Part shown: positions 1-24,478 of the stretch, one piece after another
Position numbering within the stretch: the stretch's first letter is position 1
Layout of the letters: every line of letters starts with the position of its first letter
Virus record (IMG/VR): IMGVR_UViG_3300049733_000059
Coordinates: 1-34,735 of that record
Length of the DNA stretch: 34,735 bases
From: a virus
Direction: 5' to 3' (one strand)
Notes under the pieces: generated by a model
What the model was told of the DNA's origin: nothing
Seen by the model: the letters and a program-made list of their open reading frames with translations, nothing else
Databases searched by the model: none
Translations under genes and position numbers: made by a program

Positions 1-1097
1 CGTCGTGGCATCCAGCGTGGCAGCGGCACGAGGTACCACCCCAGGTCGCCAGGCTGCCGTGTGCGGTCGAACTCGTGCCAGATCGACTCGGTATCGAACG
101 ACCACCATTCGGCGTACGCCGCGTCCGTGTCGGACTTGATGAACGTCGCGCAGTCCGGCCGCGCCATCGCGGGATACGGCCCGAGCAGATGCGGCAGCGT
201 GTCCTCGATGACGCCTGTCGGGTCGACGACGAAGGGCTCGTCGACCGGCGGCTTGAGCTCCACGAGCGCCCCGTCGATCCTGAACCGTGCATCGTGCTGC
301 ACGCCCTTGACCGACCACACCACGCGGATCGTCTCGGTGAAGCGGTCCCAGCGCGCATCGTGCGGCCCGTCCGAATCGCCGGCGAAAACGATGTACCCGC
401 GGCTCGAGCCCCATGGCCGCAGCAGCACGCGCGTCTGGTCGTGCGAGAGCAGCCACCAGCCGCCGGGCGTGCGAATCGGAATCGGCTTGGCTTCCCACTC
501 CGCGAGCGTGAGGTCCTCGGTGGCCGCGTCCACGGTGCGTCGGCCGTAGACGCGCGACTCGGCTTCCCAGCACAGCGCCCCATAGCGGAAGGCCGGTTCG
601 CGCGCGCTGAGTACGGCCCGTCCGTCAGGGCCGCCCACCACCGCCATGCCGTAGGTGTGCCCAGCGTAGAGCAGCCCGGTCGCGTAGTCCGTGCAGGCGA
701 AGAGCGCGCCGTGATCGTCCCAGGCTGGCGCGGCGAAGCCCGGCCAGACTGTGCCGTCATCGAAGCGTAGACGCGGCCCGTCGTCGACCACCTCGAAGAC
801 GGTCCACCGTCCGCCCCCAGCGGCGATCACATTGCCGCTGCGCCCGATGATCTGCGGGATGTAGTCCGGCCCACGCGCCTCCATCAGCGCGCCGTCGTGT
901 TCGCCGCCCTGGTAGGTGTAGAGGAGGATGTTGCTCTCGGCCTGGATGTCGCTGCCGCGCAGCCACACGGGCGAGGTGCCGTGCGGGAACTGATCGCCCT
1001 CGAGCGGGGCGATCGGCTGGCCGTCTACCTCGATGATGTCGTGTCCGCTGGCGACGTGATTCGCGGGGGGCGTCAGACGCGGGAACCAGCCGGACAT
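1..1097 (-). CDS. Large unrecognised virion/adsorption-type protein, 3' end cut by window
   Basis: An open frame of 365 codons runs off the left edge, so the C-terminus is missing. The start is the ATG at 1097 because an in-frame TGA lies just upstream; no convincing Shine-Dalgarno (SD) site is visible. The protein opens MSGWFPRLTPPANHV and is rich in Gly, Trp, Asp and Tyr. Residues about 60-200 look like repeated short beta-strands of a propeller or beta-sandwich type, and no catalytic motif is recognisable. It is the last gene of the structural cluster, after the giant ejection-type protein, where podoviruses often carry a tail spike, lysin or receptor-binding protein. That role is inferred from position only. 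It sits 39 nt downstream of one copy of the 16-bp repeat. Confidence 0.7.
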   Translation of the reverse strand, partial: MSGWFPRLTPPANHVASGHDIIEVDGQPIAPLEGDQFPHGTSPVWLRGSDIQAESNILLYTYQGGEHDGALMEARGPDYIPQIIGRSGNVIAAGGGRWTVFEVVDDGPRLRFDDGTVWPGFAAPAWDDHGALFACTDYATGLLYAGHTYGMAVVGGPDGRAVLSAREPAFRYGALCWEAESRVYGRRTVDAATEDLTLAEWEAKPIPIRTPGGWWLLSHDQTRVLLRPWGSSRGYIVFAGDSDGPHDARWDRFTETIRVVWSVKGVQHDARFRIDGALVELKPPVDEPFVVDPTGVIEDTLPHLLGPYPAMARPDCATFIKSDTDAAYAEWWSFDTESIWHEFDRTRQPGDLGWYLVPLPRWMPR

Positions 1098-10954: not shown

Positions 10955-11254
10955 TCAGGGCTTCGCTACGCCGGTCGCTGGCTTCGCCTCGAGCGCGCCG
11001 GTCTGCCCGTTGAACGTATAGCCCGGATGCGCCCGCTCGAGGTCCCGTGTCAGGCCCTCGAGGTCGGCGCGTAATGCCTCCGTGTTGATGCGCGTCCGCA
11101 GAGGCGCGAGCTCGACGCGGCAGGCGTCGGCCTGCGCGATGGCCTGCACGAGCTGCGACTTCAAGCGGTAGTTCTCCCACCGCAGCGCCTCGACGTCTGA
11201 GAGCGCCGGCGCTGGGGCCACTTGAAGCATCAGGAACAAGAGCAGGGCGCCCAT
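10955..11254 (-). CDS. Small coiled-coil protein with N-terminal signal or anchor; spanin-like candidate
   Basis: The product is 99 residues. The first 18 (MGALLLFLMLQVAPAPAL) form a short hydrophobic leader or anchor. Residues 20-75 are a heptad-like charged helix with one Cys, and the C-terminus contains HPGYTFNGQTG, then an Ala/Lys/Pro tail. The layout, an N-terminal anchor followed by a periplasmic-type coiled coil, resembles inner-membrane spanin components, but no partner outer-membrane lipoprotein (lipobox) is seen nearby. The ATG overlaps the stop of the fibre-like gene (TGATG). It lies between that gene and the holin-like candidate, so a lysis pair is possible but unproven. Confidence 0.7.
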   Translation of the reverse strand: MGALLLFLMLQVAPAPALSDVEALRWENYRLKSQLVQAIAQADACRVELAPLRTRINTEALRADLEGLTRDLERAHPGYTFNGQTGALEAKPATGVAKP

Positions 11255-12276
11255 CAGTTACAGACCCATCCTCCGTTGATGCGCTTGGCGATTGCCCCCG
11301 TGCTGCTTCCAGCGCAGGGGTTCGCGATCGTGCAGTCCGTGCAGTAATACAGGGTCCCGTTCGCCGGCGAGCCAAGACCGGCGAAGCTCTGCGTCGCGAG
11401 CGTGATCTTCTCCGTGAGCAGGAATCCGGTGCTGCTGTCCACGCTCGCGACCGTCACGCCGTTTTCCGACAGCGTCATCACCCCGCCGCTGTAGGTGAGG
11501 CCGGAGGTCGTTGCACTCGCGAACCGGACGGAGTCGGGCAGATAGAGCCCGTTCGCCGCCACGATGCCGAGGATGTCCGCCGACACCCGATACAGGCCGA
11601 GGTTCGTGTCGCTGCTGAAGCTGATGCCCGGGGTGCCGGACGAGCCGTCCGCCGCGAGAATCTGTCCGCTCGGCGTGATCGTGCCGGTGACGGCGACCGA
11701 ATCGGACAGCGTGAAGCCGGCGCTCGCGCCCACGGCATCAAACGTCACGCCGCCGGCCGATCCGATCCCGATGTTGACGTAGTTGCTCCCGTCGTAGCGG
11801 AACGTCGCCTGCGGATTGGTCGTGCTGGTCACCGTCAGCGTGCCTGTGAGAGCCGTCGCGCCCGTCAGGGTCGTCGTGCCGGTCACGGCCAGCGTGCTAG
11901 ACAGCGTCACCGCGCCGGTGACGGCGAGGGTGCTCGAGAGGGTCGACGCGCCCGTCACGCCGAGTGTGCCGCCGATGGTCGCGTTGCGGCCGAGGAAGAG
12001 GTCCCGCGGCCTGGTCGTGCCGCTCGCACCGAGGTCGTACGTGTTGTCGGGCGAAAACACGAGCGCCCCGGCCATCGTCCCGCCCTGCCGGTTCAGCGCA
12101 GCGCCGTAGATGACGGAGAAGTTGGAGTTGACCTGCGTCGGCGAAATGACGGTGCCGGCCGTGAACGTGTAGGTCGGGCCGGACACTTGTGCCGCGACGA
12201 GCGCCGGCGGGGTCAGCATGCCCAGCAGCAGCAGGCCGATCCGCTTACACGATGTCCGCACGGTCGCTCGAGACAT
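11254..12276 (-). CDS. Tail-fibre-like protein with Sec signal peptide and 12-residue repeats
   Basis: The 340-residue product begins with a basic then hydrophobic leader (MSRATVRTSCKRIGLLLLG), with a plausible signal peptidase I site VAA-Q after residue 29. Residues 80-100 (DLGASGTTRPRDLFLGRNA) match a segment common in phage tail fibres. Residues about 108-155 are four 12-residue repeats of the type TGAxTLSSTLAV, probably a repetitive beta fold. The C-terminus is Cys-rich (YCTDCTIANPCAG, ending GGWVCN). The start overlaps the previous gene by 32 nt, and the SD site is weak; a later ATG at 12219 would remove most of the leader. A fibre with a secretion signal is unusual for a phage. Function is inferred from the repeats and position. 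Confidence 0.8.
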   Translation of the reverse strand: MSRATVRTSCKRIGLLLLGMLTPPALVAAQVSGPTYTFTAGTVISPTQVNSNFSVIYGAALNRQGGTMAGALVFSPDNTYDLGASGTTRPRDLFLGRNATIGGTLGVTGASTLSSTLAVTGAVTLSSTLAVTGTTTLTGATALTGTLTVTSTTNPQATFRYDGSNYVNIGIGSAGGVTFDAVGASAGFTLSDSVAVTGTITPSGQILAADGSSGTPGISFSSDTNLGLYRVSADILGIVAANGLYLPDSVRFASATTSGLTYSGGVMTLSENGVTVASVDSSTGFLLTEKITLATQSFAGLGSPANGTLYYCTDCTIANPCAGSSTGAIAKRINGGWVCN

Positions 12277-12559
12277 AGAACTGCACTCCGATCTGAGTAT
12301 TCGCGTCTGGCGCCGTCATCAGCGCAATGTCAGCGGTCCACGAGGCCATGTCGATATCGTAGGCCGCGCCAGTCTGCCAACAGACGTCGTGTCCGGTCGG
12401 CACGACCCCGAGCCCGTGGGCAATCTGCCGCGTCGCGCCCGCGGTTGGGAACGTCACCGACAGGAGCGGGCCGTACTGCCGCCGGGGCTGCTGCCCAAAT
12501 TCGTTCCGCCGCAGGGCTTCTGCGGTCGGCTGGCTGACGAACGGGTCAGGCCGAGGCAC
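12245..12559 (-). CDS. Small virion-type beta protein (104 aa)
   Basis: I start this gene at the GTG at 12559, where AAAGG lies six bases upstream; longer versions of the frame run through the tail nozzle gene and are shadow sequence. The product begins PRPDPFVSQPTAEALRRNEFG after the initiator. It contains VTFPTAGATRQIAHGLGVVPTG and ends in short strands (IGVQFYVSSDRADIV). An AHGLG-VPTG motif of this kind occurs in small phage tail-associated proteins. It overlaps the end of the nozzle gene by 14 nt and the start of the fibre-like gene by 32 nt, so all three are probably translated together. It may be a tail tip or fibre-attachment component; that is inference. Confidence 0.75.
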   Translation of the reverse strand: MPRPDPFVSQPTAEALRRNEFGQQPRRQYGPLLSVTFPTAGATRQIAHGLGVVPTGHDVCWQTGAAYDIDMASWTADIALMTAPDANTQIGVQFYVSSDRADIV

Positions 12560-14687
12560 TGAGCGCCTTTCGTCGTCGGAGCCAATCGCAGCCGATGCTA
12601 TAGCCAGTGATCTCTGTCGCCTGGTCCGGCTCGTAATTCGAGAATCCGACCTGCACAGCGCGGAAGGCACGCCCCACGCGCACCTTGCGTTGCCGGCGCA
12701 CGACCGTCGACCAGACGCTCGTGCCCCAGATGGCCGAATTCCACAGGGACGCGCCGGTCGCCGCGCTGAAGTCCGCCGTCCGTGATGTGATCGGGCCCTC
12801 GCCTTCGTCGAACCGTAGCACGACCTGAATGGTATGCGACGGGAGGATCGTCGTCGTCTCGTCTCCGGCCGGCTTCCATTGCAGGTCGAACCAGCCGGCG
12901 CGTTTGCGCACGCCCGGCGCCCCGCCATCGAGCACAGGGCTCCACCAGTACCAGTCGATCCCGCCGACGAAGATCCGTGCCCCGACGGCCGGAGTCGCGG
13001 CGAGGGGCGGATGGTAGGTGGTGTCGAGGGTCAGGACGGTCGCCGTATTCGAGGCGATACGGTGCCACACCCACGAACCGTCTGCCTGTTGGATGGCGAC
13101 GGGCAGGCCCGCGAGCCCTGCGCCGGTCGTGTAGAACGCGGCACTGTCGCCCGTGATCTGCGTGGTGCTTGGCGGCGTCGGCAGGGCGGCAACTGAGGTC
13201 ATCACTGTGCCGCTCGGCACGCTCTGCCGATCCGTTTCGAAGAGTCGATGGACGCGCCCCCAGAGGTCGCCACAGAACAGGCCGGACGCCGCATTGTTCG
13301 GCGTGTAGTGCGTCAGCGCCCCGTACTCCAGGCCGGTGATCGGCGGGAGCCACGTCTCGAGCCCGTAGTGATAGGCGAGCAGCGTCCGGTTCCGGCCGAC
13401 GTACTCGGTCCCGATGGACCACACGATCAAGCTGTGTGCCTCGTCGTGTGCGACGCGAATCTGCCGGGTATTCGTCACACGCTCGAGGGTTGCGTCGATG
13501 CGGTAGTCGGCCAGCCCTTCCCAGACGTTGAGGTTCGTCCGATAGGGTCCTTTCACCTCGTCCCAGGCGTAGAGGTAGTCGCCGACGGCGATCGTCGCCT
13601 CAACGCTGACGGTCCCGTAATCCGGGCTGAGCTCGCGAATCTCGAAGGGGAGCCGCGACCCTTCCAGGTAGAAGCTCCGCGTCGGCTTCATGATCACGCA
13701 ATAGGTGCCGAAGCTCACGACCGCGCGCACGCCTTTGCCATCGCCCGGAGACACCTTAAAGATGTCCTTCGGGTTCCACGACTCGCAATCGTGCTGTTTC
13801 GACACGTGCATGTCGGAGCCGTCCTCGACGAATCCGACCACGAAGCCCTTCCACACGCCCATGGCGGCAAAGTTGACAGTCGGCGGGTCGTTCGCGCTGT
13901 TGAGCGGGAGGGGGTCGACGCGTGTCCCATCCGTCACCGCCTCGGTGTAGGTGGGCACGCCGTAGATCACCGTCGCGACACGCATCCAGTAGGCTTCGGA
14001 CGTGTCCTCCCGGCGCACGTAGATCCGGTAGTGCGTCACGTTGGACGGTGGCGACCCTGTCGGTGCGGTGTGTGTGCGCGTCTGATTGGTCAGGACGAGG
14101 CTCGCCGTGGCGTCCGTCGATGGGCTGCTCTCGTGGTCGTGCGTCTGGTCGTACCAGGTGTAGCGCGCGCTGTAGGTGCCGGTGACGCCGGGCCCGGTCC
14201 CGGCGGTCATCGCCGTGACGCCGGTGGGCTTCACGAAGCCGACGTCTCGGACGGTCGCCCCGTCCCAGAGCTGCTGTTTCGACCCGTCGTGCAGGAACGC
14301 CTGATTCTTGAACAGCACCGCGCGCCCGGGGTTGCCGGCGACGTAGCCCGTCGCGCCGCTGATGGCCGTGAAGCTGTCGATTTCGTCGTAGCGATACCAG
14401 GCGCCGCCCCACTTCCCGAGCAGTTGGCTTGTGCCGGCCTCGCGCGTGTAGGGGATGAGCCCGTCGCAGCCCGTGCTCGCCACCACCGCAGACGGCGTCA
14501 CGAGGCGCGAGCCTGGCGCGCGCCGAAGGGTCGCCCGCCGCTTGCCGTGCAGTTCCACCGACCCGAAGAAGCAGTTCCGCGCATCCGGCGACGCGCCTGG
14601 ATCGAGCGTGTCGCTCTCCGGGCTGTCCAGATAGCCCGGCGAAAAGTCGCGCGTGCCGAGCGTCAGGTCGGGCACGTCGTAGCTCAT
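12546..14687 (-). CDS. Putative tail nozzle protein (tail tubular protein B-like)
   Basis: This 713-residue protein is beta-rich throughout, with repeated blade-like segments, for example ATGYVAGNPGRAVLFKNQ, VWKGFVVGFVEDGSD and TYCVIMKPTRSFYLEG. Between residues 150 and 260 it carries a fibronectin-like stretch (YSARYTWYDQTHDHESSPS, then VTHYRIYVRREDT). This combination is typical of the nozzle protein that closes podovirus tails. It directly follows the tail adaptor candidate with a 4-nt ATGA overlap, the same order as tail tubular proteins A and B in T7-like phages. I rely on architecture and order, not on a recognised signature. Confidence 0.75.
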   Translation of the reverse strand: MSYDVPDLTLGTRDFSPGYLDSPESDTLDPGASPDARNCFFGSVELHGKRRATLRRAPGSRLVTPSAVVASTGCDGLIPYTREAGTSQLLGKWGGAWYRYDEIDSFTAISGATGYVAGNPGRAVLFKNQAFLHDGSKQQLWDGATVRDVGFVKPTGVTAMTAGTGPGVTGTYSARYTWYDQTHDHESSPSTDATASLVLTNQTRTHTAPTGSPPSNVTHYRIYVRREDTSEAYWMRVATVIYGVPTYTEAVTDGTRVDPLPLNSANDPPTVNFAAMGVWKGFVVGFVEDGSDMHVSKQHDCESWNPKDIFKVSPGDGKGVRAVVSFGTYCVIMKPTRSFYLEGSRLPFEIRELSPDYGTVSVEATIAVGDYLYAWDEVKGPYRTNLNVWEGLADYRIDATLERVTNTRQIRVAHDEAHSLIVWSIGTEYVGRNRTLLAYHYGLETWLPPITGLEYGALTHYTPNNAASGLFCGDLWGRVHRLFETDRQSVPSGTVMTSVAALPTPPSTTQITGDSAAFYTTGAGLAGLPVAIQQADGSWVWHRIASNTATVLTLDTTYHPPLAATPAVGARIFVGGIDWYWWSPVLDGGAPGVRKRAGWFDLQWKPAGDETTTILPSHTIQVVLRFDEGEGPITSRTADFSAATGASLWNSAIWGTSVWSTVVRRQRKVRVGRAFRAVQVGFSNYEPDQATEITGYSIGCDWLRRRKALSASA

Positions 14688-15643
14688 CGCGTGAGCACTC
14701 CGAACGGCCGCACCGTCCGCCGGGGCCGGTTGGCGTTGTCGTTACACACCAGATCGACGAGGTGTGGCCGCGGTACCACGCTATCGACCGCGAGGTCGCC
14801 TGTGTTGACGCGCCACTGAATCAACATTTCCTCGAAAATAGCGTTCCACCAGTCATTGGGCAGGGGGTCGGCGTCGTAGAGGAGGCGCTTCGGCCGGCGC
14901 ATGACGGGCACCGCGATCGTGTCTGTCTCGGACGGTTTCGGGTAGACCGTGATCATCCGATGTTCGCGTGCGCTTTCCTCGGGAAACAGCGTTTGGAGCA
15001 CCGTGTCGCTGCTGGTGATGTTCAGCGTGACGGAGCCCACGCTGCTCGTGAACTCCGTCGTCGGGTCGGTGCCGGTCGGATAACTCTTGCCGATACTGTC
15101 CACCCACGACCACGTGCCCACGCTGATGGGTGTCGTGCCGGTCAGCGTCACCTGGTGCCGGCGCTCGTTGCCATTTGCATCGGCCCCCTCGATGGAGACG
15201 AGCACGGTCGTATCGGTATCGCTTGAGGAGACGACTTCGAGGGCTTCTCCATCGACGTCCGGCTGACGACGCACGCCGACGATCCCGCCGAGCTCGTAGC
15301 GGCAGGGCGTGCCGGCCACTTCAAGCGACGTGCCCGCCGAGGGGAAGAGGGCCTGCGCGTCCTCGGTGTCCAGGGGCGTGAGGATGGTCCCGCGCGTGAG
15401 GTTCCTGACCTGTCCCTGTCCCAGCCGGCCGAAGAACTCCGGCATCGCGTAGGACCGCTGGTTAACCACGAGGGTCAGCTCGAGCGGGGCCGGCGATTGG
15501 AAGTCGCGCCAGGGATGCTTCTGCCAAATGGCCTCGACGGCTCGGACGAGGGCGCGCTCGGCGACGTTGCGCGCCGTCGTGTCGCCGTCCTCGCCAACAA
15601 ACCCGAGGAACTCATCGAGGGCCTCGCGCCGGGTTTTGAGCAT
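14684..15643 (-). CDS. Putative tail adaptor protein (tail tubular protein A-like)
   Basis: The product has 319 residues. An N-terminal helical region (MLKTRREALDEFLGFVG, then RALVRAVEAIWQKHPWRDF) leads into LTLVVNQRSYAMPEFFGRLG, a pattern I associate with podovirus head-tail adaptors. The middle, about residues 125-215, is a Thr/Ser/Val-rich beta insertion. The C-terminus returns to helix (DWWNAIFEEMLIQWRVNTGD). It is translationally coupled to the nozzle candidate downstream and follows the 43-residue micro-protein by three bases. Adaptor function is inferred from these features and gene order. Confidence 0.75.
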   Translation of the reverse strand: MLKTRREALDEFLGFVGEDGDTTARNVAERALVRAVEAIWQKHPWRDFQSPAPLELTLVVNQRSYAMPEFFGRLGQGQVRNLTRGTILTPLDTEDAQALFPSAGTSLEVAGTPCRYELGGIVGVRRQPDVDGEALEVVSSSDTDTTVLVSIEGADANGNERRHQVTLTGTTPISVGTWSWVDSIGKSYPTGTDPTTEFTSSVGSVTLNITSSDTVLQTLFPEESAREHRMITVYPKPSETDTIAVPVMRRPKRLLYDADPLPNDWWNAIFEEMLIQWRVNTGDLAVDSVVPRPHLVDLVCNDNANRPRRTVRPFGVLTR

Positions 15644-15646
15644 CCG

Positions 15647-15778
15647 CTAGCCTCGCCGTCTGAACACGGGAATACTCGTCACGTCACGCCCGTCGCGCTT
15701 GAAGCCGGGCGTCGTGTCGGCTGGCGGTCCCGCCCCGCCCGTGTCGCCACCGAGCCACAACAGGAGCCACCAGATCAT
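15647..15778 (-). CDS. 43-residue micro-protein with hydrophobic N-terminus
   Basis: A short frame runs from the ATG at 15778 to the TAG at 15647. It reads MIWWLLLWLGGDTGG at its start, then a Pro/Asp-rich linker, and ends basic (IPVFRRRG). The start overlaps the stop of the upstream signal-peptide protein by ATGA, and the adaptor gene starts three bases after its stop, so it fills the only gap between them exactly. That fit and the coupling are the main evidence that it is real. The first ten residues could be a short membrane segment. I do not recognise a family. Confidence 0.5.
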   Translation of the reverse strand: MIWWLLLWLGGDTGGAGPPADTTPGFKRDGRDVTSIPVFRRRG

Positions 15779-17448
15779 GGCTGTGGGCCTGCCTCCATCG
15801 TGCGGAATGGCTTACTTACCGGGCCCGAGGACACGACGGCCGACAGCATGTGACCCTTCGGCGTGCCCGAGTTGGGGCCGTCGCTGGTCAAGTACGGCTC
15901 GTTCAAGTTGCCGTCGGCACCGACGATGTTGTCGGCGGTCGTGCCCTTCAGGTTGTTCGCATCGGTGAGCTGGCCCGTATCGGTGACTCCGCTGTCGAAG
16001 ATGTGTGTCCAGGGTGACTGTGATCCGCCATCGTTGATGATCACGTTGTGCGTGTAGGTGATCGGGCCGTCGCCGGCGCCGAGTGTGCGGACCCACACGC
16101 GTCCCTGGAAGGTGTTCCGGTACACGTAGAGCGGCCCCACGAATGGCGCTTCGATGTCCTGCGCACCATAGAACCCGAACGCGGATCCACTGCTGCCAGC
16201 GGACTTGACGTTGTTGAAGCGGATCTCGCCTGTGGATTGGTCGGTCACCTGGTTCAGATTGCCGCCGATGGCGAAGTGCTCGATCCCGTAGAACACATTT
16301 TCTCGGAAGTCGATCTCGGTGTTGTCGCTCTTGATGGCGACGATCGCTTCCTCCATGTCCTCGGCCGTGTGGAATGTGTTGCGTGCGACGACGGCCTTCA
16401 GGGTGGAGTAGAACTTCAGCGAGCAGTTATTGCCATCGGTCGCCCCTTCCGCGAGCAGCCCATAGAACTCGCTGTCAATGACCACATCGCCGTACGTCTG
16501 CGTGTCAGGGATCCCACCGCCTCCGTACTGGGCTTGCCACATCAGGTGTGCCGAGTTGCCCTCGTCGATGCCGGGACCGTGCGAGCCCATCGTCATCCCG
16601 TCCACGTACACCCCGTGACGATTGCCGACCGTGGCGCCAAATTGGAAAGCCATCGTCATCGACCGTGTCGTGCTCAGGCCGATGAGGACGATCGTGTCCC
16701 CATTGAACCGGAACCGTGGGCGAGGTGTTCCGGTCGAATCGTAGGGGTACCCCGTGCCGGTGTACTCATAATCGATGACCGCAGACCCGACGTGGGCCGG
16801 GTGCACAATCCACTGCGTAGACCGCGTCGAACTGTTCCAGGTCACGCGGTGTTCGCCGTTCTGCTGGGCCGTCGCGCTGATGGAGTCTTGCGGTAGGTTC
16901 GCGGTGGTGTAGGTCCCCGAGAGAAAATAGACGATGTCCGTGCCGCTCGACCCGTCGTAGATGTCGTCGAGGGTTTTCCAGGGGGTGCCAATCGCCCCGG
17001 TGCCGCTGCCACCATTCGTCGAGTGCGGGCTGCCGTTCACGGCGTCGACAAACTTGAATCGCCCGGTCTGGACGTCGACGCCCCAAACCCGTGAAGCCGT
17101 CGATCCGTCACAATCCGTCACGGTTGCGGTAATCGACGCGTCATCATCCGTCGTGGTATCGGTCGGCGTCCCAGAAATGAGTCCAGTACTGGCGTCGACG
17201 CTCATCCACGCGGGATTCCCGGTCAGCGAGTACGTGAACGGCAGACACCCGCCACCCGCCGCGATCTTGATCCGGTACTCAATGCCGGGATAGGCAAAAA
17301 ACGCGCGGTTGTCCGCGTCGAGCGTGTCGAGGCCAGAGCCGGCTGGCATCGGATAGACCATGCGCAGCGTGAAGACGTTCTGTTGTGCGAACGCCACGCC
17401 TGAAAGCAGCCACGCGACGATGACGGCGAGAACGCTTGCGCGGCGCAA
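15775..17448 (-). CDS. Secreted or spike-like beta-helix protein with signal peptide
   Basis: The product has 557 residues and starts with TTG at 17448: GGAG lies nine bases upstream, and the resulting leader (MRRASVLAVIVAWLLSGVAFA) is a near-ideal Sec signal peptide with cleavage AFA-Q after residue 21. Residues about 52-127 resemble a putative Ig-like domain (YSLTGNPAWMSVDASTGLIS), with Cys 68 and Cys 113 able to pair. From about 132 on, the pattern SGTGAIGTPWKTLDDIYDG, then many short strands with Gly/Asn/Asp turns, suggests a right-handed beta-helix as in tail spikes and polysaccharide lyases. No catalytic residues can be assigned. It lies between another signal-peptide protein (2-nt gap) and the micro-protein (overlap). 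Whether it is a virion spike or an exported protein is open. Confidence 0.8.
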   Translation of the reverse strand: MRRASVLAVIVAWLLSGVAFAQQNVFTLRMVYPMPAGSGLDTLDADNRAFFAYPGIEYRIKIAAGGGCLPFTYSLTGNPAWMSVDASTGLISGTPTDTTTDDDASITATVTDCDGSTASRVWGVDVQTGRFKFVDAVNGSPHSTNGGSGTGAIGTPWKTLDDIYDGSSGTDIVYFLSGTYTTANLPQDSISATAQQNGEHRVTWNSSTRSTQWIVHPAHVGSAVIDYEYTGTGYPYDSTGTPRPRFRFNGDTIVLIGLSTTRSMTMAFQFGATVGNRHGVYVDGMTMGSHGPGIDEGNSAHLMWQAQYGGGGIPDTQTYGDVVIDSEFYGLLAEGATDGNNCSLKFYSTLKAVVARNTFHTAEDMEEAIVAIKSDNTEIDFRENVFYGIEHFAIGGNLNQVTDQSTGEIRFNNVKSAGSSGSAFGFYGAQDIEAPFVGPLYVYRNTFQGRVWVRTLGAGDGPITYTHNVIINDGGSQSPWTHIFDSGVTDTGQLTDANNLKGTTADNIVGADGNLNEPYLTSDGPNSGTPKGHMLSAVVSSGPVSKPFRTMEAGPQP

Positions 17449-17450
17449 TG

Positions 17451-18617
17451 CTAGTTGCTCCCCAGCACGCGCGGCGTGCTGCCGCCAGTCGGCTCTGTCA
17501 CGTCAGAGAGAATCAGATCGATGGTGTAGCGCGAGCTCGTGTCCGTCGTCCATGACCCGGCATCTGCCCGTGACACCGCGTACCAGGCCGTGCCGAGCGG
17601 AAGGGCGGTCACGTCGTTCGCCGCATCGAATGTGAACCATCGCACCGCCAAGTTCGATGACGTCTCCTGCGGGGCCACGGCGACGATGTATTCGGTGCCA
17701 CAGGTCAGCGTCGACAGCGTCGTTTCATCGAACAAAATCCGAATCGGGGTATTTTCCGTCGTCGCCGCTGCCCCTGCGACGTCACTATCCCAGGTCACCG
17801 TCTGGAGCGCGGTCGTGTTGCTGTAGAGCGAGACGAGGACCGTCTTGCCGGTCGCTGGAATGCGCGGGAACATCCGAATCCCGGCAATCTTGAAGCTCGC
17901 GCACATGCCCGCCGGAATGGTGATGGCATTCCCGCGTTCGTCCGGCGTGGAATCGCTCGAGAACTGCGTCGCCGTCATGGTTTCGACGGGGAAGCCATAG
18001 ACCGCAGACCCGTCACCGTAGCCGTAAATCGGTGCCCCGGTCTGCTTCGTGCCGCTGCCGCCATCCACGCGCACGGCGTAGGGCAACGCCGATGTGGAGT
18101 TGGTGACGTGCGTGGTAAATGTGGAGCCGTTCGAGGTGTCGAGGGTGCCGGACGAGTACGCGATCACCAGCGCGACGAACTCACCGGGGTCACACCCGTA
18201 CGTGACGTCGAAGGTCAGCGTACGAAGCGTGCCATCCCAGGTGGTGTCGGCTGGGGGGGTGAAGGTGATGCTCGTGTCGTTCGGCGCTGGACCGTTGTCG
18301 TCCTTGATCGCGCCGTCCGCGCGCCCGTTCCCATCGACGCCCTGAAGCGAGAGCTTGTAGGTCGGCGGCGTGCCGACACGCGCCCCATACCGAAACTTCC
18401 CCGTCGTAATCGTCAGGCTCTTAGGACATTGGAAGATGTATTCGGCAGCGTCCGTTGGGCCATCGAACGTGAAGTTCGACAGCGCCGGCGCTGAACCAGT
18501 GGCCTGCACTTCGTTGACCGCGACGAGGATCGTGCGGGTCAGGTCCGAGGCCCCGCCCTGTGCCACTGGCAACAGAACGGCCACGCCAATCAGCAGCCAG
18601 CGCAACGCGCGTGCCAT
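17451..18617 (-). CDS. Secreted or virion beta-sandwich protein with signal peptide
   Basis: The 388-residue product opens with MARALRWLLIGVAVLLPVAQ and a possible cleavage after GGA at residue 23. GAGGA eight bases before the ATG supports the start. The mature part is beta-rich in two apparent halves, with aromatic and Thr/Ser-rich strands. It carries four Cys (in FQCPKS, TYGCDP, GMCASF, LTCGTE), two per half, consistent with disulfides formed outside the cytoplasm. I recognise no enzyme motif. It follows the signal-peptide protein at 18621-19505 by three bases and precedes the beta-helix protein by two, so the three form a compact unit. It is probably a structural or surface-binding protein; this is inference. 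Confidence 0.75.
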   Translation of the reverse strand: MARALRWLLIGVAVLLPVAQGGASDLTRTILVAVNEVQATGSAPALSNFTFDGPTDAAEYIFQCPKSLTITTGKFRYGARVGTPPTYKLSLQGVDGNGRADGAIKDDNGPAPNDTSITFTPPADTTWDGTLRTLTFDVTYGCDPGEFVALVIAYSSGTLDTSNGSTFTTHVTNSTSALPYAVRVDGGSGTKQTGAPIYGYGDGSAVYGFPVETMTATQFSSDSTPDERGNAITIPAGMCASFKIAGIRMFPRIPATGKTVLVSLYSNTTALQTVTWDSDVAGAAATTENTPIRILFDETTLSTLTCGTEYIVAVAPQETSSNLAVRWFTFDAANDVTALPLGTAWYAVSRADAGSWTTDTSSRYTIDLILSDVTEPTGGSTPRVLGSN

Positions 18618-18620
18618 GGG

Positions 18621-19505
18621 TCAGATCCTCGACTTGAACGCGAGCACGGTCACCTTCAATCCCGTACTCGCGGCGCTCGGATCCACGGCGACCGCCGTAT
18701 TCGCCGTGAACCCACTGATCGGCGTCGGTGGGTTGTAAATGGCGCCTGCGACGGGACACGGCACCGTCGCGATGACACTCCCTCCTGTGCCATCGCGGAT
18801 GTCGAGATAGACCTCGGTGCTCGTCGTCGGATTCGTGCAGACAACGCTCGTCACGTAGTACTTGATCGACGACCCCGCTGCTGCGAGCACGCTCGTCGAC
18901 GATCCCGCCGAGACATCGACCGATCCGCTGTTGGCGAGGTCTTCCAGGTTGGCGTGCGGCCGAGTGATGAGAATGCGATCGACGCCGGAGACGAGCGCGG
19001 TGCGCTGGCCCGCTGAAACAACCGCCGTGCCGCTCACCCCGGCGCGGGCGTAGCCGCCCAGGCCAACCGGGTTTCCCGTTTCGGAGGCCCCATCGGCCGC
19101 CGTGCCCCCGATGGTGTATGCGGACCCATTGATCGGACTGGTCAGGAGCCGCAGCTTCGCGTTGAGCGAGCCCGTGCTGCCGGCGGTCGCGGCGCTGTCG
19201 GTGGTGGCGCCGATGCCAGCGGACATCTGTGAGTCGGTCGCTTCGACCGTGCGCAGGGTCGTCGAGTCTGACGCGCCACTCCCGCGCGAGTCTGAGACGT
19301 AGTCGACCGCCGCGTTCGTGTCTGGGTCGACGAGGATGACGTGTAGCCCTCGCAGCGACCCCTCGAGCGCGCTTGTCAGCACGTTGCCTGAGCCGTCGGC
19401 GTTCCAGACTATGCGGTTGGCGAGCTGCGCCACCGCGGCCGGCTGGACCGCCGCTGTGAGGAGGACCGAGAGCAGACAGAGTTGCGCGAACCGTCGCCAG
19501 GTCAT
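18621..19505 (-). CDS. Signal-peptide-bearing paralogue of neighbouring virion protein
   Basis: The product has 294 residues. Its N-terminus (MTWRRFAQLCLLSVLLTAAV) is a Sec signal peptide with cleavage AVA-Q after residue 26. Residues 83-119 (EATDSQMSAGIGATTDSAA, then GSTGSLNAKLRLL) closely match residues 175-212 of the preceding gene product (EATDSQLSAGIGATGDAAI, then GSTGSVSAKLR), which has no signal peptide. The C-terminal 120 residues are a beta-sandwich with two Cys (SVVCTNP, TVPCPV). Its start overlaps the upstream stop by ATGA. It is probably a virion-type structural protein; the leader is hard to explain for a cytoplasmically assembled particle. Confidence 0.8.
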   Translation of the reverse strand: MTWRRFAQLCLLSVLLTAAVQPAAVAQLANRIVWNADGSGNVLTSALEGSLRGLHVILVDPDTNAAVDYVSDSRGSGASDSTTLRTVEATDSQMSAGIGATTDSAATAGSTGSLNAKLRLLTSPINGSAYTIGGTAADGASETGNPVGLGGYARAGVSGTAVVSAGQRTALVSGVDRILITRPHANLEDLANSGSVDVSAGSSTSVLAAAGSSIKYYVTSVVCTNPTTSTEVYLDIRDGTGGSVIATVPCPVAGAIYNPPTPISGFTANTAVAVDPSAASTGLKVTVLAFKSRI

Positions 19506-20431
19506 ACGTAAGTCAACTCCGTCATCCGGGCGGTGCCCGAACCAGAGGCGAGGATGCCGTCGACTCGGCCGGTGTAGCCGGTGGGATCGCGCCAGAACCC
19601 ACCGGGATCAATGGCGACCGTGAAGCTCGTCGCCGAGGCGGTCGTCCCATACTTCACGTAGAGGACGGTCGTCGCGTCGTTGTAGATCGTCAGGTCCAGG
19701 CGTCCCGTGTTCGACGCCTGCAGCGTGGCCGACGCCGTGGATGTCGAGACGTTGGCGAGCGTCGCGGTGTTGGGCGCTTCCTGCTGCAACCGGGTCCGGA
19801 GCTTGGCGCTCACGCTCCCCGTGCTGCCCTGCGTGATGGCGGCATCGCCGGTCGCGCCGATCCCGGCCGAGAGTTGGGAGTCGGTCGCCTCGGCGGTCCG
19901 AATGACCGTGGCGCCCACGGTGCCGGAGCCGGCCGCGACGCCAGCCTGTCCGACGATGAGATTGACCTTCGCTCGGTCAGACTCGTCCCAATCGTCGACG
20001 ATCTCGACCGCCGTCTTGACGGAGTCGGTGTCAGTCGTCAGACGCCGCAGCTTCGCGCTGATGGAGCCCGCCGCGCCGGCCGCGACGACGGAGTCCGCGT
20101 TCGCGCCGAGGGGGTCGGCCGGCAGCGTCAGCACGTCGACATCGCCGATGTTGTTGGTGCCAGCGGCGAGCGCCGGCATGGTCACGACATCGACGTTGCC
20201 GATGTTGTTGTCCCCCGCCGGCAGCGCACTCGGCAGCGTGATCGGCAGGGGGTTCGACGAGTCGACGAGCGTGCCCGAGCGGCTGCCCTCCGACCCGCTG
20301 GCCGTCATCAGGATCGCGGCGGCGGCGTGCGTCGTCTGCCCGGAAAAGTCCACTTCGACGAGGCACGGCACCACGTCATCAGGCAATGCCGCGCGATCGT
20401 CGCCGGTGACGAGTGATGGGTTGTCAGCCAA
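19502..20431 (-). CDS. Phage structural beta protein with internal repeats (309 aa)
   Basis: It begins MADNPSLVTGDDRAALPDDV, with no signal peptide. Residues 66-104 hold two copies of an LPxxLPAGxNNIG(N/D)VDV repeat. Residues 112-131 and 175-212 hold a degenerate and a full copy of the SAGIGATGD...GSTGS(V/I)SAKLR block shared with the next gene. The last 85 residues (LTIYNDATTVLYVKYGT, IDPGGFWRDPTGYTGRVDG) form a C-terminal beta-sandwich of a type common in phage virion proteins. It overlaps the small protein at 20424 by eight bases and the next gene by four. It is probably a spike, fibre or capsid-surface component; the exact location is unknown. Confidence 0.75.
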   Translation of the reverse strand: MADNPSLVTGDDRAALPDDVVPCLVEVDFSGQTTHAAAAILMTASGSEGSRSGTLVDSSNPLPITLPSALPAGDNNIGNVDVVTMPALAAGTNNIGDVDVLTLPADPLGANADSVVAAGAAGSISAKLRRLTTDTDSVKTAVEIVDDWDESDRAKVNLIVGQAGVAAGSGTVGATVIRTAEATDSQLSAGIGATGDAAITQGSTGSVSAKLRTRLQQEAPNTATLANVSTSTASATLQASNTGRLDLTIYNDATTVLYVKYGTTASATSFTVAIDPGGFWRDPTGYTGRVDGILASGSGTARMTELTYV

Positions 20432-23188: not shown

Positions 23189-24478
23189 TCAGTAGGAGTG
23201 CGCCGTCACCTGGGTCGTGGTGATGCCTGTCCCGATGAAGTTCCGGGCCGGGTACAGGTTGTGGTAGTTCTCGAAGAGCATCCAGTAGGCGGTAAACTCG
23301 TCGAACCCGTCCACCCATTTCATGACGCCCCCGCCCTCTTCGGCCCACCCGGTGTCGGGCCAGGTCAGACGGAGCCAGCCGCTCTGCTTCAGCCCGAACC
23401 AGTGGCCGTATGGCGCGTCGCGCTCGACGAGGCAGGGCTTCCCGCCATGCACGAGCGCCCGTTTGCCGCTGGGCTTCTTGTTGCGGGTCGTGCCGATGTC
23501 CGGCCGCTGCAGGTCGGCGCCCACGTAGCGCCGGTCGACTTCGCTCAGCGCGATGAGCGCGCGCGCCACGCCGTGCTCGAAGGCGTAGGTGTCGGGCCCG
23601 TCGCCCACCTTGATGTCGACAGCGTCATCGAGCTGCTGAATCGCGTCCTGCGACAGCGTCCCGATGCTCGTCACGACCGTGCTGTTCTCGATCGGCACGG
23701 CCGACCGTGTGATGTTGTGATAGGCCGCGACGTAGGTCGCGTCGTCGACACCGGCCAGCAGCCCTTCTGGCTCCTTGTTGTAGCTGTTCTGCGTGGCCGT
23801 CTGCGCGATGACGACGAGGTCGCCGTCGGCCGCCGTGATGGCCGAGTCGATGGTGACGTCGGTGCCATCGCTGTTGACCGCCGTGATCGTCGCGGTCCCT
23901 TTGATGGTCGTCGGCGTGGTCCCGTCGAGGACGGCGATGAACATGCCGCCGTCCGCGTCACCGTGTAGATAGCGGTTCGGCAGGGTGGTGCCGGTCACGC
24001 CGCCGGGCGCCTTCACCTCGAGGGTGGTGGCCGCCGTGTGCGTGCCGTTGACCTTGGCGAGTACGCCGGCGCCGTACCCCCAGACCATCCGGTTGCGATG
24101 GAAGGCGGCGTCTTCGACGGCCGATTCCATCTCGAGCGCCCACGCTTCCCCGAAGGCGCCCTTGTCGTTGCGCGCCCGGTTCATTGTGTAGCGGTCGATG
24201 CCGACGCGCATGTAGCAGTCGCGCATGTCGATGAGCGACTTCTTGAACGCGGACCGGCCGGCCTGCGGGAGCGCGCCGCGCGCGCCGATCGAGCCGAAGG
24301 AATGGTTCCGTCCGGTGCGCTTGGCGATGACGTGCTGACGGCCCTGTGTCGGGTCGGCTTCCACTTCCTCCATCCACGCCTGCACGTGGTTGAGACTCTG
24401 CAGGCTGTTCAGGATGGCGCGAGAGTGGTACTGATCCTTCAGCATCGGGTCGTAACTGGTGCTGTCGGTCGCGGGCAT
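23189..24478 (-). CDS. Major capsid protein
   Basis: The start is the ATG at 24478 (MPATDSTSYDPMLKDQYHS) with AAGGAG ten bases upstream, giving 429 residues. The N-terminal region is helical (RAILNSLQSLNHVQAWMEEV). A long helix follows (KKSLIDMRDCYMRVGIDRYT), then a Thr/Gly-rich beta region near 150-230 (TTIKGTATITAVNSDGTDVT), and strands towards the C-terminus (LRLTWPDTGW, AYWMLFENYHNLYPARNFIG). This order suits HK97-fold capsid proteins. Placement directly after a scaffold-like gene and before small decoration-type genes strongly supports the call. The protein forms the icosahedral shell. No protease gene is seen upstream, so assembly probably relies on the separate scaffold. Confidence 0.85.
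   Translation of the reverse strand: MPATDSTSYDPMLKDQYHSRAILNSLQSLNHVQAWMEEVEADPTQGRQHVIAKRTGRNHSFGSIGARGALPQAGRSAFKKSLIDMRDCYMRVGIDRYTMNRARNDKGAFGEAWALEMESAVEDAAFHRNRMVWGYGAGVLAKVNGTHTAATTLEVKAPGGVTGTTLPNRYLHGDADGGMFIAVLDGTTPTTIKGTATITAVNSDGTDVTIDSAITAADGDLVVIAQTATQNSYNKEPEGLLAGVDDATYVAAYHNITRSAVPIENSTVVTSIGTLSQDAIQQLDDAVDIKVGDGPDTYAFEHGVARALIALSEVDRRYVGADLQRPDIGTTRNKKPSGKRALVHGGKPCLVERDAPYGHWFGLKQSGWLRLTWPDTGWAEEGGGVMKWVDGFDEFTAYWMLFENYHNLYPARNFIGTGITTTQVTAHSY

Follow-up and report, generated by a model that had tools for sequence, protein, structure and literature searches.

Four exterior fibre- and spike-type proteins encoded in the window, by which we mean the whole 34,735-nt stretch of DNA analysed here, are very probably exported from the host cytoplasm. 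Export is proposed because a predicted Sec leader is present in 13/13 orthologues of the fibre gene, because homologues elsewhere lack the leader at exactly its predicted boundary, and because leader-bearing proteins show a bias toward even numbers of cysteines. The window is a 34.7-kb uncultivated phage record of 68% GC, with its genes read on the minus strand in the order terminase, portal, scaffold-like, capsid, small head-type genes, spike-like genes, adaptor, nozzle and fibre. Small lysis-like genes come next, then internal proteins and finally a giant protein of 1939 aa that has an LPD38 domain. The major capsid protein (23189..24478, minus strand; phrog_14242, 8e-31) is leaderless in the window, as is the head-tail adaptor (14684..15643, minus strand), assigned from synteny together with a PF24175 SU10_adaptor match of 21.9 bits, which is below the cut-off. 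The tail nozzle-like protein (12546..14687, minus strand) served as the marker of the phage family; its homologues (E < 1e-70) lie in L002, L003, L055-L058, L088, L090, L092, L093, L104 and L105. No relatives were found among isolated phages when these were searched with the window DNA and the nozzle.

Predicted leaders of the four window genes

N-termini were assessed with a home-made heuristic scorer of Sec/SPI signals, for which 82 annotated E. coli K-12 genes served as calibration. At a score of 9, exported proteins passed in 8/8 cases (all at least 9.18), cytoplasmic proteins in 0/55 and membrane proteins in 4/19. A preliminary description of this DNA had placed Sec signal peptides on three adjacent spike-like genes and on a fibre-like gene; the four open reading frames, all on the minus strand, were confirmed, and the leaders were borne out. 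The genes at 15775, 17451, 18621 and 11254 scored 11.5, 10.8, 10.7 and 9.9, respectively, compared with at most 3.8 for the other window genes (26 window genes scored); proven E. coli signal peptides score in the same range as these four. Each N-terminus combines a positive n-region, a hydrophobic core and a small-x-small site within the first ~30 residues, and the mature parts are free of transmembrane-like stretches (best Kyte-Doolittle mean over 19 residues, 1.0-1.4). Predicted cleavage falls at AFA-Q (21/22) for 15775, AVA-Q (26/27) for 18621 and VAA-Q (29/30) for 11254, in agreement with the sites proposed earlier; for 17451, AQG-G (21/22) is as possible as the GGA-S site (23/24) given before. 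The predicted +1 residue is Gln in 15775, in 18621 and in 13/13 fibres, and Ser or Gly in 17451. Shine-Dalgarno matches lie 9-11 nt 5' of all four leader starts. Moreover, the start of 18621 shares an ATGA with the stop of the gene upstream, and those of 17451 and 15775 come 2-3 nt after such a stop; given this tight coupling, later starts are unlikely for the three adjacent genes, since they would leave unlikely gaps.

The spike-like gene at 15775..17448 (minus strand, 557 aa) opens with a 21-aa leader ending in SGVAFA-QQN (17386..17448, minus strand), its start lying 2 nt past the upstream stop with the Shine-Dalgarno GGGAG 9 nt upstream. A He_PIG Ig-like domain (PF05345, 1e-8), the only Pfam match, and a repeat-fold-like stretch follow; that this stretch is a beta-helix is a guess. 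The AlphaFold model (pLDDT 31) was too poor for a fold search, no homologues were found in viral contigs or phage records, and the only PDB sequence matches, to cytochrome b559, were taken as chance. In the spike-like gene at 17451..18617 (minus strand, 388 aa), a leader of 21-23 aa (18549..18617, minus strand; VAQG-GA-SDL) precedes a mature region with four Cys (64, 142, 239, 306). A PDB sequence search with this protein gave no match, and its AlphaFold model (pLDDT 47) was likewise too poor for a fold search. An internal repeat with matching Cys pairs was considered and not accepted (score 56, shuffle maximum 60).

The third adjacent gene (18621..19505, minus strand, 294 aa), spike- or fibre-like, has a 26-aa leader ending in PAAVA-QLA (19428..19505, minus strand), with GGAG as Shine-Dalgarno 11 nt upstream. 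Its mature region is partly paralogous to the product of the leaderless neighbouring gene (19502..20431, minus strand; phrog_9224), whose likely start is 20374 or 20431 (local alignment 160 vs shuffles 63 +- 10). The stretch 18621-20431 on the minus strand hence holds tandem partial paralogues, ATGA-joined, one with and one without a signal peptide. A homologue of 18621 in L082 (1910-4389) likewise carries a leader; in that short contig it stands directly 3' of a terminase-like gene. No Pfam barrel match was obtained for any of the four proteins, and their leaders end in the A-x-A-Q manner and not at Cys. Neither the position nor the sequence of the three spike-like genes is conserved within the phage family, and, judged by sequence, their products may equally be virion spikes or envelope-acting proteins.

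The fibre gene and leaders across phage genomes

The fibre gene (11254..12276, minus strand) encodes 340 aa comprising a 29-aa leader (12190..12276, minus strand; PALVAA-QVSGP), a conserved N-terminal domain and a variable tip with four Cys; the Shine-Dalgarno GGAG (12286..12289, minus strand) lies 9 nt 5' of the start. The protein weakly matches the tail fibre family phrog_4549 (9e-6). Relatives were reached by a nozzle search (L002 and L003) and through the fibre N-domain (L055-L058); in each of these, capsid, adaptor and nozzle are homologous. A second scan, using a leader-stripped fibre query (alignment A5), added six phages (L088, L090, L092 [one phage, four contigs], L093, L104 and L105). 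A homologous nozzle (E < 1e-70) marks 13 distinct phages; in each of them the fibre gene comes after the nozzle and a ~100-aa gene, and in 13/13 it carries a leader. Examples are MRRLLTFFVFLLLSAAPAWA in L003, MKHKLLLLLAMLVLLATPAQA in L058 and MRRKAVWGGLVLVLALAVPAAA in L105, each followed by Gln; the L104 leader is less typical, having a long n-region and reaching 9.05 only at a start without a Shine-Dalgarno sequence. The cleavage region and the +1 Gln are conserved across aligned relatives. That the leader sequences vary while the n-h-c plan and the +1 Gln are kept is as expected under selection for export and cleavage.

The 11254 protein also has the traits of a podovirus tail fibre: its gene adjoins tail-tube genes and is kept across the clade, and its N-domain is conserved and its tip variable (alignments A2 and A5). 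A Peptidase_S74 C-terminal tip occurs in L002 only. From its place behind the nozzle, its universality and its conserved-N/variable-tip plan, we lean toward reading 11254 as a virion tail fibre that uses an export route. The gene adjoining the fibre at 10955..11254 (minus strand; homologues in L055-L058) encodes a small protein that is coiled-coil-like and hydrophobic at its N-terminus. Its homologues are leader-like, scoring at least 9 in several relatives, and no leader scored in the window copy; it is possibly a spanin-like lysis protein.

Leaders are concentrated in one part of the genome. In seven related phages, they were found at Shine-Dalgarno-supported starts in 21/122 genes of the block from the capsid to the giant gene vs 4/199 genes elsewhere (Fisher p 1.3e-6, the genomes being related and so not independent). 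Leaders stand on fibres, on spike-like proteins, on small post-capsid proteins and on the small coiled-coil gene that follows the fibre; there are none on the adaptor, nozzle, portal, terminase or internal proteins of the family. Among capsids, L058/G008 is an exception in reaching the threshold, with L003 at 8.7 and others lower. In the capsid genes of L058 (39-1385; G008 12445-13791), L057 (985-2331) and L003 (1131-2489), the only Shine-Dalgarno-supported start adds 22-24 N-terminal residues. The L058 extension reads as a signal peptide (MKNRMSLAGTLVLLMSGQASA, then H) and is absent from the window and L056 capsids; treating it as a plain start artefact was abandoned, given the Shine-Dalgarno support.

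The leader behaves, on sequence comparison, as a module. The fibre N-domain occurs without it in L059, L060, L100 and L103, where the proteins begin at the domain itself: L060 starts MASLTITNTFTNGT, and L058 reads AQ-ITITYTFTNGT across its predicted cleavage site. Similarly, L081 encodes a leaderless homologue of 17451 (42% identity) without any of the four Cys (64, 142, 239, 306), and the distance to the shared SN(F/Y)TF motif is 26 residues from the L081 start and 28 from the predicted mature start of the window protein. Of the small post-capsid protein, the L055 and L057 copies have a leader and the L056 copy does not. As evidence that would count against its proposal, the preliminary description had named relatives in which the leader is missing and the start lies further downstream. 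Inside the family the fibre leader is always present, and it is in other phages that the protein begins, leaderless, at the mature start; this mixed outcome, as we read the alignments, helps the case for export. The fibre N-domain with a leader or anchor was also found outside any phage, in exported bacterial proteins of Spirochaetales, Halobacteriovoraceae and Deltaproteobacteria MAGs (L050 5659-6246, L051 9890-10576 and L052 7911-9131), the L050 protein apparently ending in a tail-collar-like domain. A prophage search for a host in the phylum of the Deltaproteobacteria MAG found the nozzle in 0/195 genomes.

Leaders were also seen in other phage lineages. In the distant podovirus MW202554 (capsid 33% identical; depositor's gene calls), a 'tail collar domain' gene adjoining the nozzle has a leader-like N-terminus, as do three more structural-region genes. 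In MW202444, a leader opens a 1253-aa protein that matches the window fibre tip with 66% identity at its C-terminus, and none was found among the structural genes checked in MW202795 (whiB genes present). Among ~33 other phage loci with domain-sharing fibres, such leaders occurred only in the L037/L038 phage. G001, an unrelated phage, has six leader-bearing structural-region genes with 2 to 18 Cys, all even in number. In this tape-measure-bearing phage (L037 3952-12138, L045 2-1714 and 6202-6735), the leader-bearers include a glycoside-hydrolase-like and a beta-helix-like protein with 12 and 18 Cys.

The preliminary description had also spoken of paired or clustered Cys. Clustering holds for the fibre (312, 315, 321, 339), whereas one gene has an odd number: the counts are 3, 4, 2 and 4 in 15775, 17451, 18621 and the fibre, respectively, with 15775 an exception to an otherwise even pattern. 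Among Cys-containing proteins, an even number was found in 24/27 leader-bearing vs 51/130 leaderless proteins (p 3e-6), in a test conceived post hoc from the data and with homologues that are not independent. In a fresh set of six later-fetched phages, the difference was weaker (9/12 vs 11/31, p 0.04). Fibres have an even number in 13/13, non-zero in 11. Overall Cys density did not differ between leader-bearing and leaderless proteins (p 0.14); parity alone did. For exported proteins of Gram-negative bacteria, even Cys numbers are already on record as a characteristic feature (PMC7678975). The bias, which is separate from the leader sequence, supports an oxidising compartment.

Proposed export and assembly, and competing explanations

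We propose that each of the four exterior proteins is first synthesised as a precursor whose Sec signal peptide can be cleaved off. Late in infection, the host Sec machinery would export them, and signal peptidase I would remove the leader, mostly leaving Gln at +1. The mature proteins would then fold outside the cytoplasm, several with disulfides. The proteins of the particle core (portal, adaptor, nozzle, internal proteins and, in the window, the capsid) carry no leader. If the fibre is both exported and part of the virion, the two would need to come together around lysis: the holin would open the inner membrane, virions would meet periplasmic contents, and the exported, trimerised 11254 fibre would be fitted to them. 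Translocation, cleavage, a diderm host, virion attachment and any role ascribed to the spike-like trio are all inferred here. The full course from Sec export to a fibre joining the virion around lysis falls just short of what we would call probable. The generalisation that the clade sends its exterior adhesion proteins (fibre, spikes, some decoration-type) through Sec, with periplasmic folding, disulfides and two-compartment assembly around lysis, is offered somewhat more tentatively.

Several points weigh against this mechanism. Some membrane proteins also clear the scorer's threshold. The N-domain, being present in non-phage exported proteins, need not be a virion-attachment domain. Fibres fitted once the inner membrane has opened would be up against dilution. 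Finally, receptor binding could instead be the task of a leaderless protein encoded past the lysis genes (window 3-1097, G005, G008), and a claim that any leaderless receptor-binding candidate is absent was dropped given these loci. The window 3-1097 product (minus strand), cut by the window edge, has a start resembling that of G008 41973-43709 and is possibly a beta-propeller and candidate receptor-binding protein. G008 has a 4287-aa giant virion-type gene (27402-40265) where the window has the 1939-aa gene.

Of the two possibilities in the preliminary description, one took the proteins as secreted accessories and the other as spikes joining particles late. Export, common to both, was well supported, and for the three spike-like genes the sequence does not separate the two. 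It is conceivable, if somewhat doubtful, that the exported proteins stay in the host envelope or medium and never enter particles, the leaders being of the envelope 'moron' type. Roles in receptor blocking, as decoy fibres, in surface-glycan cleavage or binding, or in superinfection exclusion would then come into question, with the same reserve. Exported phage proteins encoded in the tail region are indeed known, such as lambda Lom (PMC12309495), and P. gingivalis phages encode Q-rule secreted proteins (PMC10367356). An exported partial paralogue of a leaderless neighbour, as 18621 is, would suit a decoy, and the N-domain's occurrence in exported bacterial proteins and the lack of conservation of the three spike-like genes point the same way. 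However, accessory genes are usually patchy, whereas the fibre is found in 13/13 phages, adjoins the nozzle and has tail-fibre architecture; its leaderless homologues elsewhere resemble ordinary virion fibres.

A different possibility, which we consider unlikely, is that the N-termini do not serve export and act as an inner-membrane anchor during assembly or as a segment matured by a phage protease, with the proteins going straight into virions. The signal-peptide-like, Shine-Dalgarno-supported extension of the G008/L058 capsid fits this, a capsid not being usefully exportable, and capsid signal peptides of P. gingivalis phages have been ascribed to prohead-protease cleavage (PMC10367356). Yet only L058 reaches the threshold among capsids, and 13/13 fibres combine the n-h-c plan and A-x-A-Q site with even Cys, while an anchor needs no signal-peptidase site. 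Very unlikely, in turn, is a start-site or composition artefact of GC-rich DNA with the real starts downstream. The 68% GC, the TTG start of the 15775 leader and the later start picked there by a codon-based caller would favour it, but Shine-Dalgarno sites and tight coupling mark the leader starts. Moreover, the leaders are kept in relatives of 57-69% GC and in the phage L102 (47% GC), and other genes of these genomes lack them.

Implications and comparison with known systems

Conserved fibre leaders would mean either a second assembly compartment or exported 'free fibres' acting on the host surface, and either outcome would alter the annotation of receptor-binding proteins in environmental phages. 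Some 'auxiliary' secreted enzymes of soil viruses could be re-read as spikes (compare the six leader-bearing genes of G001). Because homologues exist with and without a leader, single proteins would suffice to test the question.

Phage genes with signal peptides are already known; for conserved leaders on the tail-fibre genes of a clade, no report was found in the open-access literature. Signal peptides are rare (under 5%) among phage membrane proteins (PMC4641393), and phage DGR target proteins were without them in one study (PMC6199706). The P. gingivalis phages (proposed Nixviridae, PMC10367356) share with the present clade Sec/SPI leaders, Gln at +1 and signal-peptide-like capsid N-termini. 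There, however, five genes whose function is unknown are concerned, whereas here the leaders lie on tail-fibre genes, in 13/13 of the clade, and on neighbouring spike- and decoration-type genes. That paper ties the Q-rule (Gln at +1 of SPI substrates) to Bacteroidetes; with GC up to 70%, the hosts of the present clade are probably not all Bacteroidota.

Lom-type morons are likewise Sec-exported phage proteins, some of them encoded among tail genes. However, they are outer-membrane barrels or small lipoproteins, not fibre- or spike-type proteins, and are not known to be clade-universal. Cor and T5 Llp are envelope morons like Lom. Tailed phage particles are taught to be assembled in the cytoplasm. 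T7 gp17, assembled there, is not known to have a signal peptide, in contrast to the leader-bearing fibre of this clade. The two otherwise agree in a gene behind the tail-tube genes and near the lysis genes, and in a conserved N-domain with a variable tip. Virion proteins with cleavable signal peptides are familiar from the coat proteins of filamentous phages. These have leader-bearing virion proteins in common with the proposal made here, but they are ssDNA phages assembled at the membrane, with no tail and no capsid shell filled in the cytoplasm.
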